Positions 35,899-44,429 of a stretch of DNA of 64,000 nt are shown one piece after another (the stretch's first letter is position 1; every line of letters starts with the position of its first letter). The DNA is taken from positions 62,001-126,000 of the forward strand of contig JAHLKF010000015.1 of assembly GCA_025558075.1 (NCBI GenBank), given 5' to 3'. Made by a program: the position numbers and the translations under genes. The notes under the pieces were generated by a model. That model saw nothing but the letters and a program-made list of their open reading frames with translations. It made no database searches and was not told the DNA's origin. Source of the DNA: Gaertneriomyces semiglobifer. Lineage: Eukaryota; Chytridiomycota; Chytridiomycetes; Spizellomycetales; Spizellomycetaceae.

Positions 35899-36752
35899 TT
35901 AGAGGTCAGTGAAGACGTCCTCTTCTTCGGTCTCATCCAGGAAGTCGTTCCAAGCCGTTGATGTCAATGAAGGCGCACGTGGCGCCCGCGGTGTCGCGGA
36001 TGGATCGTATAGAATGGAAGGTGGATTCGGTGGTGAGGTGTGCTTCTTTGGTGGAACGTATGGATAGTCAGCCAAGCGTCCAGGTCGCGGTGATGAAGCT
36101 GGGGCGGCCCCGTTGTCTGCGGGGAGTTCCCGCGACTTTCGTATGGATGATGGGGCCATTATATCAAGGCTTGTATGCTCAAAGGATGCACAGGCAGGGC
36201 GTGTGTTCAAACTCAATGCAGATGTTGAAGGTTTCTTGCGCAGAGCGCTAAACATGTTTCCTTTACGGCCGCTCCGGGCCGCCGGTAGTTCAACGATCGC
36301 ATCCGCCACACGTTTCGTCGGGCGTTCTGATACGTTTCCAATGCTCTGACGCTTGCCTGATCGTCTACCCGTCAGTAGCTGCTGGTCTGGACTTGGCAAT
36401 GTATCCCCATCATCCGCGTGTGGCTCGTCCTCAACATAAAGGCTCCAGTCAGGTTTGGGCACATTTGATATCGGCAAGGCATGTCTTTCCTCAGCGACCT
36501 TCTCCGGCGAGCGTTCATTAGCACTACTATTGAGACGATCTGCCATAATTTGCTGCTGGATCTGCTCGGTGACCTCTATTTTACGTGCATTGAGCTGCTG
36601 CACCGCCTTCCGGCAATCGGACGCTGCGGAGGACGCAAAGAAGACCTACTAGAGATCGGTTAAACCTAGCGGAAACAAATTCAACCTTAAGCGAATTGAA
36701 AGGCGAGCAACTAACTCTTTGCAGACTTTGCTTGGAGCCGCATACTGTACAT
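35899..36752 (-). CDS. Uncharacterised Ser/Pro-rich protein
   Basis: Two exons in my model, 36716-36752 and 35899-36623 (253 residues). The first codes for MYSMRLQAKSAK and joins in phase 1 across a 92-nt GTTAGT...CGCAG intron. A short coiled-coil-like stretch follows (QQLNARKIEVTEQIQQQI). The rest is disordered: acidic patches, basic Ser-Pro clusters and a Tyr/Pro segment (LADYPYVPPKKHTSPPNPP). It ends in a very acidic tail (FLDETEEEDVFTDL). I recognise no family. The second exon is a clear 234-codon ORF, but the first exon is inferred from one splice-site pair and could be different. It converges on the Mug70-like gene and diverges from Zim17. Confidence 0.6.
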
Positions 36753-37012
36753 GTCCACTTTTTCGACTTTTTCTCCTACACACGCCAGGGAATCGATGGG
36801 TGAGACAATGTAATAAATATGGGCTGGTCGAACAGCAAGCATGGCATTACCTGTTGGACTTGATACAGGCGACAGGCGTCAGAGTAGCATTGGAGTACTT
36901 GAAAAGAAGGCATGGGTTCTATCAAGGGAACGGGGTTTCTGAGCGTTCGCGCTTGACAAAATCGAGTCAACGCAGCTGGTTCAGATCTTGCTCTACTTTT
37001 GAAATAACCAAG

Positions 37013-37630
37013 ATGAGCACACAACTAGTTCGCCAATTAGCAAGGTGCTGCCTCAAGTCCTCAGGTGCAGCGTCTCCTGCTGTACGTCGTCATGTCGGAC
37101 TTGCAGTACCTGCGATTAGAGCCCATTCCGCTGCCTCCAGGCTTGCCAGAGCTCACCGCTGCTTCGGCTCTACACCTTGTTCTCACGACAAGCAAGCAGA
37201 TGTCGGCTCAACCACACCATTAGGGCAAATCGACCCCAAGATGATCATTGGTTTCACATGTAAAGTCTGCAACCACCGACAACACAAGTACATGTCAAAA
37301 AAAGCCTACACAAAAGGTGTTGTTCTCATCCGTTGCGACGGCTGCAAGAACCTTCATTTGATTGCCGATAACCTTGGCTGGTACGACTCTCAAAAGCCAC
37401 CAGGAACCATTGAACAGATTATGGAAAGTAAGGGGCAGAAGGTGCACAGGGCTAGAGTTGCCACACCTACGGCGCAGTTACCCGACGATCCTGCTGAGAT
37501 TGCTAAGATGCATGAGGCCGATTTGTTGAATGAGGATAACGGGATGCTAGAGTTTCTTGCCAAAGAACAGGCGCAGGATGGACAACGTACGGCTGAGGAC
37601 AAGGGTGCGGAAAAGGAGAGTAAGCCCTAG
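37013..37630 (+). CDS. ZIM17: Mitochondrial Hsp70-escort protein Zim17/Tim15 (DNL zinc finger)
   Basis: Single exon, 205 residues. The DNL-type zinc finger is complete: FTCKVCNHRQHKYMSKKAY, then VVLIRCDGCKNLHLIADNLGWY (two CxxC pairs and the Asp-Asn-Leu signature). Zim17/Hep1 keeps mitochondrial Hsp70 (Ssc1) soluble and active in protein import. The first ~65 residues are rich in Arg, Ala, Ser and His with almost no acids, a clear matrix-targeting presequence. The C-terminal 70 residues are acidic and less conserved. The frame extends upstream of the chosen ATG to about 36719, but that part reads as noise, and the presequence character starts exactly at MSTQLVRQLARC. Confidence 0.94.
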   Translation: MSTQLVRQLARCCLKSSGAASPAVRRHVGLAVPAIRAHSAASRLARAHRCFGSTPCSHDKQADVGSTTPLGQIDPKMIIGFTCKVCNHRQHKYMSKKAYTKGVVLIRCDGCKNLHLIADNLGWYDSQKPPGTIEQIMESKGQKVHRARVATPTAQLPDDPAEIAKMHEADLLNEDNGMLEFLAKEQAQDGQRTAEDKGAEKESKP

Positions 37631-39256: not shown

Positions 39257-41285
39257 ATGGCATACCAGTTCCGTGAGCGCATTGCCCAGCGGCTGGCAGA
39301 GCTCACTGGTTTGCCATCGGAGGACCTCTGTCGAGCTGTCGGAAATGGAAGAGGAGATTCAAACGAACAATACAGGGTATCGGCAGCCGCTCTCCGTGCG
39401 GTTGCGGGAAACAGCTCGCATCACCAGGATAGTACCTTGTTCGGCTTAGCTACTACTAGAGCCGATGATCTTGCCACAAGATTGGCTGACGCATGGCATG
39501 ATACTACCATTACTGCTGCGGCCTCCGGGCCGTTTGTCTTCTTCTCAGTCCCCACAACAGAATTTGTGTCCGCTACATTGTCTGCTATAGAGAATGGCCA
39601 TCACTTTTGTGGAACCTATCATTTAAAGCCTGTGGGTGACAAGGTTACGATTGTCTATGACTTTCCAGGCCTTGGCGAGGATTTTACGGGCTCACACTGG
39701 CGAGCGCTGGCAATGACATCTTTCAGCGTGAAGGCTTTGAAGTTACGAGGATGCCATAATATCATTACAAAATGCCGTATCAACATGTGGAACGCCAGCA
39801 CCGGTTAGTTGGCCTCTATGCACCGTCTCTACCAAAGATTTTACGAAGTCGAAGGAAGCCATACTTCGGAGCGGAAGCTAATCAGTAAATGGAACAGGTT
39901 GTATGTTGCTCTTGCATAGAAATAAGGATTCGAAGAGAAAGTTGCTCGACAATGCTCCAGCCTACTTGAGAGAATTACGACTGGAGGCTGTAGGATTGGC
40001 TGAAACGACTCCATCATTTTTGGGGGAAGCTACCGCCATAATGCGCGATCTGCAGAATCAGCAAACAGATGCTGTACAATTGTGGAGGGAGCTATGGGAT
40101 GCGTGGTCACTTGGCATGGAGAGAGATCTTCTTGCCGCGAACTTCATACTGAAGCCAACAACGGACGAACTCGAGCTTGGGCGCGTAGACCGGATCAGTG
40201 CTTTTTGTGATGCGCTGAAGTCGAATGAATGCATTTCGAATGGTCGAGTTGCCGGAGAGCTGGTGATGAATCTCCAAGAAGATCAGTCAGGAATTGCCGT
40301 GGTGATAAGGCCCCTGACTACCACCCCTGATATGGCTGACGTTGTTGTACCAACACCGGTGTTAATGGACGCTTTGACATTCCTTGAGAATCCGGATACA
40401 CCCCACTTGTGGGTTCGAGCTGCGACCAAGGCTTATGCACTGGGTCAGAGTCTTTGCGTAGCAAGGCGTACAAAATTGGACGGCATGGGAGATATATCCG
40501 AAGACATTTGGATTGATGTTCCATATGGTCTTGTAGATAAATTGGGAGTGGGGATAGAATCCGCCACTTCGCCAATCGCTTACATTCAACAAGCTGAGCT
40601 CAGTATGAAGAAGTTGTCGGTGAACGACGACCTCTGCGATGATGAGGAATTTGTTTTGGCAGACAGCTCTTTTGCTGACATTGATAAAGGAGTACAGAGC
40701 TGTGCTTATGTTGTTGAGGGCGAACCGCGCACTCCCCCATTCACGAAGGACCGGGTAGCCTGGTTCGTGGCGCACTCGGCTATAACCACTCAGATATTGC
40801 AGCGACCCCGGTCAAGATCGTTTACATTTTCCTGGGCTCCAATCATCAACCATGCCAGTGATAGTGGAGTTTTTCTGCAATACATTCATGCGAGGCTCTG
40901 CAAGTAAGTTTTTGTCACTCATTTCTTTGGGGCATTCAAGCGAACTGATGCATGCTCCAGCATTATGTTGAAATCTAGGACGCTACACAACCCGAAAGCG
41001 ATGGTGGATCCGCTTCTTCATTCATCGCAAGCGCTTTCACTCATAAAAACACTCTCCCGATATTCGGGTGTCTTCGCTGCCAGCATTAACTCTTTGGAAC
41101 CGAACCTCCTCCAGCAATACCTGGTAGATCTAGCATCACGAATCTCCAGCGCAAGCTATTCGCTACGGATTAAGGATCAGCCAGAAGACATTCGAGAAGC
41201 TCGCATGCGACTGTTCTCCTGCGCTAGAGTTATTTTATGTAGTGGCTTGCGATTGTTAGGTATCATACCAGCTACACGTATGTAG
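39257..41285 (+). CDS. Degenerate arginyl-tRNA synthetase-like protein with DALR domain
   Basis: Three exons: 39257-39803, 39898-40903 and 40961-41285 (625 residues). The overall layout follows class I ArgRS. There is an N-terminal domain, then VTIVYDFPGLGEDFTGSHWR where ArgRS normally has the P-F-H-x-G-H signature, then a GGCMLLLHRN stretch in place of WGTQFGMLL. A diverged core ends at WIDVPYGLVDKLG. The C-terminus is an intact DALR anticodon-binding domain (YIHARLCNIM to RLLGIIPATRM, the usual P-x-R-M end). The first HIGH histidine is replaced (F-T-G-S-H) and I see no KMSK-like loop. Aminoacylation is therefore unlikely, although the long ORF is clearly maintained. Animal DALRD3 is a comparable ArgRS-derived pseudoenzyme, but orthology is not shown here. 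Confidence 0.8.
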
Positions 41286-41632
41286 AAAGACCTTCTTCGT
41301 CTATGTCTGGTATGACACCCGCTCCCGCTCTGAAATACCCGGGTTCATACCGGCAGGTACGGCCGCAGAGGCAACCCTGATAGCTTAATGCAAATAGGAC
41401 TATAAGCTCCGTTAGACTCTGAACTTAACGCTCAGCTTCTGGCTACCGTATAAGCCCTGCATACACGATGTTTACATCCCAATGCTGAAGTTGGCCCTGC
41501 GTTCGTTCGTCTCGGTGCTCTCATCTCACAGCTTCAAGCTGATTGACCAACGCGTTCTACTTGTTTGGGGATCTCACAACGAAGCAACTTATACCCATCC
41601 TTGTACGTTTGATAACGGGAACTGTAGTAACG
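41286..41632. other. 0.35 kb spacer, no gene recognised
   Basis: The spacer lies between the ArgRS-like stop and the ATG of the next plus-strand gene. An ATG at 41482 opens a frame of 95 codons that overlaps the phosphatase start out of frame and shows no motif. Confidence 0.5.
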
Positions 41633-42311
41633 ATGCCGTCGAATCTCCAAGCAACTGTTATTCTAATCCGCCACGCCGAGAAGTTGAACTGGCGGTCAGG
41701 CCTAGCGCCTACGAAGGAGATGAAAGCACAGTACGTCGACGACCACACCCTATCTGCCAAAGGTCTTGAGCGATCTCATGCACTAGTTGGGTACTTTCAG
41801 TACCGAGAAGAAATGCAAGAGATTTTTCAAAGGTGTCCATTAGCCGCTATAATTGCGCAGGACGTTGACTCTTCGCGGGAGCCATGGGGAAGGAGTGAAA
41901 GGCCCAAGCAAACGATTGCCCCGTAAGTGAAACCTTTTTTTACCAGCGAAGTAAGTTTTCTAAGCAATACGGGGGTTTTTTTGCAGGCTAGCGTCAGTTA
42001 TGGCGACAAAGGGGGTTGAGGTACTTCTGTACACCAAAAAGCAGGTGGAAGACGTAGTCAGCGAACTGTTATCCGGCAAATTCAAAGGTCGTACAGTCAT
42101 CATTTCATGGGCACATCAACAGATGCCCGAGCTCGCCCAAGCGTTGGGAGTGTCTGCGAGTAGTGTGCCTAAATGGGAAAAGGGACGTTTTGATGTGACA
42201 TGGGTAGTGGAGCCGTCTGCGACGGGTGCGCCTGTGCTCAAGCAGTTTGCCCAAAGGTTGATGTACGGAGATAAAGACTCAATAATGCCCCTTGAAGATG
42301 CGAAGCAATAA
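41633..42311 (+). CDS. Histidine phosphatase superfamily protein
   Basis: Two exons, 41633-41922 and 41987-42311 (204 residues), joined in phase 2 across a GTAAGT...TTGCAG intron. The N-terminus has the phosphoglycerate-mutase-like catalytic signature in the variant ATVILIRHAEK (Arg-His-Ala instead of Arg-His-Gly). Later come LSAKGLERSHALVGYF, an RSERPKQTIAP stretch where the second core Arg region is expected, and IISWAHQQMPELAQALG with the second catalytic His. Proteins with RHAEK are common among small, uncharacterised fungal and bacterial phosphatases. The substrate is unknown. No signal peptide or membrane segment is present. Confidence 0.8.
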
Positions 42312-42446: not shown

Positions 42447-44429
42447 CTAACGAAAATCAGCCGAGTGTCGGAAGAGGGAGTCCGTTATTGAACTGTTCTC
42501 GCCTTTTGTGGTGATTTTCATGCGAGCAACTTCCACTTCAAGTTTTTCAACATCTTCCGCCAACTTGGCTCTTTCGGTAAGCAGCATCCTGGAGGTAGCA
42601 CTCTGGGGTATCCGGCCGGGCGATGATGTCTGCCGTATCGAAGGATCCACTGGCGCCGCTACAACGTTGAATTTTCCAGTTGGAAGTGCCGGTAAGGTAA
42701 CATACCCGGCCGACGAGGCATGGACTGAGCGTATCCGCCGCAGGCCATCATTCTCGCGGCGGAGCCGCTGAATCTCATGTCGGAGCTCGGCAATTACGCG
42801 AACGTTCTCATCCACTTGAACAATGGGGCGATTTCTAATCTTTCTTGCTCGGGCCGCGTAACGGAGAGTTTTATAGGTTTCTCCCAAACTGCGCAATGAT
42901 GGCGCTATGCAAGCGATCATCATCGCGATTCCGCTACCGCCAAGCGAGTCAGCTAACAGCTGGGTTAACTTGGAATCTCGGAAAGGAATATGCCCACCAC
43001 GCGTGCGGCGATCAGACAATGCGGAAATGCAATTGCCTAAGCATCTCGTTGGTAAGTGCTGACACTAAGGTTCGCTGAGAAAATCTCACCTAGAGTCAGC
43101 AGGCTCTTGTTGATGTTTGAGGTTTCATCCAACGCTTTTCCTGTTGCCTTTGATTCGTTGACTCTTTCACTACCTATTGCTCAGTTGTACAATCAATAGT
43201 GAAATGATACTGAACACCAGCCATCCACACCTGCCAAGTCAACAAAACTGATTTTGCCGTATTTGATGTAGCGATCCTGTGATTGGGGGCCTTCGACATC
43301 CTTGCTGTCTAGGTAGACAGTGAATATGCTGTGGCTTCTGGAACTGTACTCGTTGAGGGCGTGAGCTCGTGTGGCGCGATTTCTTAATCCTGAGGGCACA
43401 TGTGCACCAGATTTAGCACAGATCTCACCTGGTTACTGCACATTATTGCGTAGCCTACCTTCTTGTATTACTGCGACGCAATCCTCCATGCTGTGACAAT
43501 CAATAACCAGCTGGTTCTCGACATAAAAGCCTCTCCTGCGGTTCCATCTCACAGTCAGGCTCTGAGTCTTTTCAGCAGCTAGCAGATCATGCACCTTTCT
43601 TTTGAGTTAAGTCTCCTAACTGCATACAAGTGCTCGACGTCCTAACCGTACCCGCTCGTTGTATATCTCCAAAAAGGTAAGCCGCATGCGATAGTGGAGG
43701 TGAGGCCTTGATGCTATTTGATGGAATACGAATGCCATTGCGCGCAAAATGAGTCCCCCATGCATTTCATTCACTTCTGCTCCTTGAGGCCCAGTACACG
43801 TGTAAGTCTTCCCACTCCCTGTTTGGCCAAAGGCGAACACTGTCGTAGCGTACCTAAGTTCTGAATGTCAAGGATTGCTGGCTTCGGCCCAAACCGCATG
43901 TGCTCACCCATCAAGGCTCTTCATGATAAGTTCCTTCACTCCGGACTCTTCAAAAAAAGCTGCTTGGCCGTAAGCTCCATCCAAAACGCGGTGGAAAGTC
44001 AACGTTCGCGGTTCGGCACTCGGTGCATTCACCTATTACACGACCGTTTCGTTGTTGGTCATTGATGACTACTTTAACAATCAGTGTACTACCTGACCTG
44101 AATAGTACGTCCGTCGGCATGACATGAAAGTACAACAGGATCTTGGTAGTTGTCATGATGATTCAGTGGTCGGATTCTCACTACGACTCGGATGTTCTCA
44201 TCAGGATTGTCACGTTGGCTTCCTGCGCTAGACTGGTGGCCCGCTGGGGTAGATGGGCAAACGCTGCCTACTTGACTTGAGCCAGTCTCGGGAAAAGAGT
44301 TGCTCCAAATAGATTCCGAATCACTGTGAGAAGGCCATGAGTTGGTTGCATTTTCGGGTCCCTGCTCAAAGGGATAGGACACGGGTTGCTGATCAAAGTA
44401 GGAATAGTCTGCGGGGTCGTTGGCATAGG

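Follow-up and report, generated by a model that had tools for sequence, protein, structure and literature searches.

An ArgRS-like probable pseudoenzyme with a largely kept tRNA-binding end in the chytrid Gaertneriomyces semiglobifer

The closest described counterparts of the gene reported here are yeast cytosolic arginyl-tRNA synthetase (ArgRS), vertebrate DALRD3, which serves the methyltransferase METTL2, and the ArgS-related family NrtL (NF045898). According to excerpts of PMC8318970, fungi in general carry a mitochondrial-type ArgRS and the yeast-type enzyme has no need for A20 of its tRNA, while the N-terminal part of DALRD3 is described without recognizable motifs in the excerpted text of PMC7237682. 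We analysed a 64,000-nucleotide window of Gaertneriomyces semiglobifer (Spizellomycetales; contig JAHLKF010000015.1, positions 62,001–126,000, in an assembly of 66 contigs and 20.86 Mb), where a gene of three exons and two introns at 39257–41285 on the forward strand encodes a spliced ArgRS-like protein of 625 amino acids, the same as the NCBI predicted hypothetical protein P0001 (100% identity over 100%). Because its catalytic motifs and the residues that we take to form the arginine pocket are lost, a separate intact ArgRS is present in the genome and a full-length copy is predicted in a second species, the protein is very probably a pseudoenzyme, and the original prediction of a maintained one is well supported on the same grounds.

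ArgRS ancestry and the eroded active site

By profile comparison, homology to ArgRS is far above chance and, as had been claimed for class I ArgRS, runs from end to end: hhalign aligned the protein with a 42-row ArgRS profile over positions 4–626 (expect value, E, 2.2e-25) and with a 3-row profile over 86–624 (E 7.8e-16), and a phmmer search of PDB returned yeast ArgRS as the nearest solved relative (E 4.1e-19). The 42-row profile and the 32 fetched ArgRS of the trees described below are subsets picked for spread; of 80 ArgRS loci fetched, 75 passed a length and frame filter and five were dropped. In the superposition on yeast cytosolic ArgRS (1bs2, 1f7u) that had been proposed, 555 residues of a predicted structure aligned at 3.3 Å, the fold being retained; this model is biased toward ArgRS because 78 of its 80 input rows are ArgRS, and an earlier model from six sequences (predicted local distance difference test, pLDDT, 50) was set aside. 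The protein falls below the cut-offs of the argS equivalog TIGR00456 (99.1 bits against 261.65, with the genome's other ArgRS at 494.4) and of the catalytic-domain model PF00750 (11.8 bits against 23.3), and it matches DALR_1 (PF05746) at 73.7 bits (cut-off 22.3) over 117 of 117 positions; a Pfam scan found no domain beyond DALR. NrtL resembles it at the anticodon-binding end and gives a weak match of 29 bits, far under a cut-off of 340, with a model of 327 positions against 625 residues.

As judged from the alignments, the catalytic signatures are dismantled. The HIGH-equivalent reads TGSH (residues 144–147), in which the first His is replaced, as originally noted, the Gly is gone as well and the last His is kept. 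The GDWGTQFG-equivalent, NMWNASTGC (176–184), retains, of the GDWG residues, the Trp alone, the Asp and the two Gly being lost; it is degraded as described, though not quite into a 'GGC stretch'. No KMSK-equivalent is visible in alignments with ArgRS, again in line with the first description, its position being filled by a longer, poorly predicted segment (399–465; pLDDT under 50 over 426–460), and no set of HIGH and KMSK equivalents is in place. Relative to yeast ArgRS the alignment gives E148V, S151F, N153G, K156E, H159T, G161S, D191M, G193N, Y347V, D351P, Q375K and R411A, with the second His of HIGH and E294 retained; all six positions that we take to be the arginine pocket of yeast ArgRS are replaced. 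An alignment of 78 ArgRS, the genome's own included, has 48 columns with at least 85% conservation, of which the ArgRS-like protein keeps 22 and the genome's own ArgRS 41. By region, the protein keeps 4 of 6 columns in the N-terminal domain (one of them the initiator Met), 5 of 14 in the first half of the catalytic region and 3 of 13 in the second, 2 of the 5 stem columns and all 8 DALR columns; another two of the 48 are gaps in the protein and enter none of these counts. The protein shares with yeast cytosolic ArgRS the whole fold, the DALR domain and the C-terminal RLLGxxPxxRM, and differs from it in its active-site and presumed arginine-pocket residues and in carrying segment 399–465 instead of the MSTR loop.

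A divergent, still active mitochondrial ArgRS would fit the kept last His of HIGH, the yeast enzyme (fungal mitochondrial type) as nearest solved relative and the finding of no other yeast-type ArgRS in the genome. It is nevertheless very improbable, given that the residues of the assumed arginine pocket and of the HIGH, GDWG and KMSK equivalents are replaced together and that another intact ArgRS is present.

The tRNA-binding end and retention in a second species

The protein ends RLLGIIPATRM, as the predicted ArgRS ending R-L-L-G-I-x-P-x-R-M had it, and the DALR residues Y491, R495, R581 and M607 (yeast numbering) are retained; Y491, R495 and M607 are, we assume, anticodon contacts of yeast ArgRS. 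Because most of the tRNA-binding end is kept, arginine tRNAs may still be handled in another job, and binding of tRNA-Arg by the ArgRS-like protein is likely.

A protein search, in which 7,996 candidates sharing most words were scored with the full query and 352 with a DALR-region query, turned up a predicted 626-residue copy in Gaertneriomyces sp. JEL0708 (P0002, named 'Arginyl-tRNA synthetase') that is 91% identical over its full length (568 of 626 in BLASTP; 56 substitutions and one 1-residue indel over 626 columns in MAFFT), suggestive evidence that the protein is apparently retained in two species. Differences between the two copies are lowest in DALR (5/117) and the stem (2/43) and most frequent in the KMSK-replacing segment 399–465 (12/67).

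A decaying, non-functional gene that has not yet acquired stop codons would be consistent with the very long branch to ArgRS (4.45–4.9), with the occurrence in two species only and with the status of the P0002 open frame as a gene prediction. We think it quite unlikely, since the frame is open with two GT-AG introns and a 626-residue product is predicted in the second species; the 57 amino-acid changes would under neutrality be accompanied by 3.0–3.3 stops, of which none is present (P 0.04–0.05); divergence is uneven and least in the stem and DALR; and after several changes per site the protein still keeps the conserved columns of DALR and yields a model that folds. Outside the stem and DALR, too, the two species' proteins agree to a large extent (82–93% by block), which would suit a pseudoenzyme maintained for some other role, whether in sensing arginine or tRNA charging, in translational control or in structure, and pseudo-synthetases with regulatory roles exist, such as the HisRS-like domain of Gcn2. 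Such a role seems unlikely in view of the lack of a further Pfam domain, and sensing of arginine directly through the former pocket is so in particular because all six of its presumed residues are replaced.

A bacterial-type ArgRS, the arginine tRNAs and the comparison with DALRD3

Searching the genome for canonical ArgRS, as the original prediction had advised, revealed one other intact enzyme, which is bacterial-type, so the ArgRS-like protein is not the only ArgRS relative in the genome. PF00750 hit one place, on contig C1, and DALR hit the C1 gene and the ArgRS-like gene; with yeast ArgRS as query there was no third locus, its three matches being the C1 gene and two ArgRS-like exons. The C1 ArgRS occupies a 608-codon open frame on a 1.96-Mb contig, reaches 620 bits against Neisseria ArgRS, compared with 520 against the Escherichia coli, 403 against the human cytosolic and 235 against the yeast enzyme, is 56% identical to the Neisseria enzyme and groups with it at 100/100 in a tree without human ArgRS. 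A eukaryotic neighbourhood is indicated because adjoining open frames match the MMR_HSR1 GTPase, TSR2 and TIP49 families, and the gene may be a horizontally acquired replacement for the fungal ArgRS. Since this enzyme is bacterial-type and no third locus was found, fungal-type ArgRS would survive, as far as detectable in an assembly that may be incomplete and with a weakly supported yeast placement, solely as the ArgRS-like protein.

We tentatively favour, as an explanation that falls somewhat short of probable when taken whole, a retained ArgRS-derived pseudoenzyme that would stem from the fungal mitochondrial-type lineage, bind tRNA-Arg by the anticodon arm and, as its most likely role, act as an adaptor that presents some of the tRNA-Arg species to a second enzyme. 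The leading candidate for a partner would be a METTL2/Trm140-type methyltransferase placing 3-methylcytidine at position 32 (m3C32) on tRNA-Arg(UCU) and tRNA-Arg(CCU), comparable to the service of vertebrate DALRD3 to METTL2; by this analogy an m3C adaptor role is possible but doubtful. A METTL6 query gave nine matches, eight of them in two genes, METTL2-like (contig C26, 118487–119409) and METTL6-like (C18), and a weak ninth on C7 (E 0.003); the METTL2B query sequence is unconfirmed. Pattern scans for tRNA-Arg together with a 63-match scan supplied at least 13 genes (ACG 7, UCU 2, CCG 2, CCU 1, UCG 1), and among the 13 the combination of U36 and A37 occurs in the UCU and CCU genes only. The METTL2-like gene and the candidate tRNAs are permissive of the m3C role, not diagnostic.

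The main rival, which we consider unlikely, is that the dead copy serves as a cofactor presenting tRNA-Arg to the C1 ArgRS and helps to charge tRNA-Arg lacking A20, a D-loop base usually recognized by bacterial-type enzymes. In the excerpts of PMC8318970, the position of yeast Q111 is proposed as the A20 reader of bacterial ArgRS; the sole intact ArgRS found is of bacterial type with Asn there, and the ArgRS-like protein, which has Phe, has as its nearest solved relative yeast ArgRS, a type not needing A20. D-loops read by eye appear to lack A20 in the CCU, UCG and CCG genes and clearly have it in both UCU genes, the seven ACG genes being ambiguous. The position-20 rule is, however, a trend with exceptions, and the C1 ArgRS may simply have relaxed tRNA recognition. 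Adaptor to a METTL2-type enzyme and adaptor to the bacterial ArgRS are both accommodated by a history in which a horizontally transferred bacterial ArgRS took over and the displaced fungal ArgRS became a dead tRNA-Arg adaptor, which we regard as conceivable though rather unlikely; the causal tie between the arrival of the one and the conversion of the other is one that we infer. The METTL2-type variant would make the protein a fungal equivalent of DALRD3, of either independent or ancient origin.

A search for DALRD3 returned 689 proteins, of which 120 were listed, mammalian wherever an organism was given; 23 entered a profile and five the trees. Against the 42-row ArgRS profile the mammalian profile matched over positions 78–541 (E 9.4e-15), with eroded HIGH and KMSK equivalents, and against the 3-row profile the C-terminal half alone was matched (300–538, E 1e-7). 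Because the longer match covers 78–541, it suggests that the N-terminal part of DALRD3 is an eroded ArgRS body, and it favours an origin by duplication and decay, one of the two options given in the excerpted text of Lentini et al. DALRD3 and the ArgRS-like protein are alike in carrying DALR_1 at the C terminus of an ArgRS-like body without HIGH and KMSK equivalents, and the G. semiglobifer genome, like mammals with DALRD3, has an intact ArgRS and a METTL2-like gene; the two proteins are unlike in that the ArgRS-like protein lies nearer to catalytic ArgRS (E 2.2e-25 versus 9.4e-15). Precomputed matches place PF26758 on DALRD3 and not on P0001 or P0002, and the Pfam copy that we scanned missed this family even in DALRD3.

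Trees were built from 44, 39 and 42 rows (32 fetched ArgRS among the 44), with P0003, which long branches had joined with DALRD3 in the 44-row tree, omitted from the other two; branches of the ArgRS-like protein and of DALRD3 measure 4.45–4.9 changes per site each. The best tree puts the ArgRS-like protein with yeast ArgRS at weak support (59/87), a grouping that the free search on 39 rows missed and that was 5.1 log units better when constrained (p 0.80). Several other constraints were not rejected: joining the protein to the genome's own ArgRS (p 0.16, in the set of tests that gave the support of 59/87) or, on 39 rows, to own and Neisseria ArgRS (p 0.13), and, on 42 rows, joining DALRD3 to yeast (p 0.23) or to the own and Neisseria enzymes (p 0.14).

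Several observations weigh against a retained tRNA-Arg adaptor akin to DALRD3. The 'intact anticodon-binding domain' first described holds for the fold and for eight conserved columns within 509–625, but not for three changed stem columns (503, 507 and 508), which sit directly before the Pfam DALR border, so that the count of 8/8 hinges on where that border is placed; nor does it hold for other residues that we presume to contact the anticodon in yeast ArgRS (Y488F, R501L, Y565S, W569R). Orthologues turned up, among the candidates scored, in two species of one genus, and the missing-stop argument is weak because P0002 is itself predicted and prediction avoids stops. C32 discriminates nothing, because all 13 tRNA-Arg genes have it, in part since the search patterns require it. 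Compared directly, the ArgRS-like protein and DALRD3 gave hhalign E 0.03 over 57 columns and 24.6 bits in BLASTP, and a tree constrained to join them was neither supported nor rejected (approximately unbiased test, p-AU 0.268). The proposed tree of ArgRS and DALRD3 therefore yields no shared clade but does not reject one; the trees leave the descent of the ArgRS-like protein unsettled and point to no specific kinship with DALRD3. A fungal DALRD3 counterpart, as had been suggested, is compatible with the shared ArgRS-derived body without catalytic signatures and is unproven at E 0.03 and p 0.27.

Searches of the open-licence literature brought up no paper about an ArgRS pseudoenzyme in fungi. 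A full-length one would make it testable whether ArgRS was converted to a tRNA adaptor repeatedly, or already before the origin of animals, and the presence of a bacterial-type ArgRS beside it in this genome may amount to a natural experiment in synthetase replacement.

Gene structure and neighbourhood

Both introns of the ArgRS-like gene have GT-AG borders and the reading frame is open (Table 1). An alternative intron 1 acceptor at 39960 is in frame, but it drops a stretch alignable with ArgRS and conflicts with P0001; translation through intron 1 (frame 0, LASMHRLYQRF...) would require stop codon readthrough, and P0001 skips it.

Table 1. Coordinates of the ArgRS-like gene (in the window) and of the C1 ArgRS (on its contig)
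Feature	Position	Strand	Basis
Exon 1: N-terminal domain of ArgRS, beginning of degenerate catalytic fold	39257..39803	+	spliced product versus P0001, 100%
HIGH-equivalent, residues 138-149 GLGEDFTGSHWR; yeast ArgRS NIAKPFHAGHLR	39668..39703	+	alignments
DWGTQFG-equivalent, residues 177-184 MWNASTGC, split by intron 1	39785..39902	+	alignments
Intron 1, GTTAGT...CAG, 94 nt	39804..39897	+	reading frame and P0001 match
Exon 2: remaining degenerate catalytic domain, stem helices, DALR start	39898..40903	+	P0001 match, Pfam
Segment replacing KMSK/MSTR loop, residues 399-465	40545..40745	+	alignment and structure model
Stem helices, residues 466-508	40746..40874	+	alignment and structure model
DALR domain, residues 509-625, interrupted by intron 2, ends RLLGIIPATRM	40875..41282	+	Pfam, alignment
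Intron 2, GTAAGT...CAG, 57 nt	40904..40960	+	reading frame and P0001 match
Exon 3	40961..41285	+	PF05746 match
Intact bacterial-type ArgRS	C1:364050-365813	-	PF00750, DALR, alignment

A SURF1-like gene (PF02104; 38390–39064, reverse strand) forms a head-to-head pair with the ArgRS-like gene; some 190 bp separate the ArgRS-like start codon (39257) from the end of the 5'-most SURF1-like piece detected. On the 3' side, open frames at 41543–42311 (forward strand) carry an ILIRHAEK motif and look histidine-phosphatase-like by eye; the first open-frame piece had no Pfam match at E up to 1. Further neighbours identified by Pfam are a DNL zinc-finger protein at 36653–37627 (forward strand) and a kinesin motor fragment at 42447–43064 (reverse strand).
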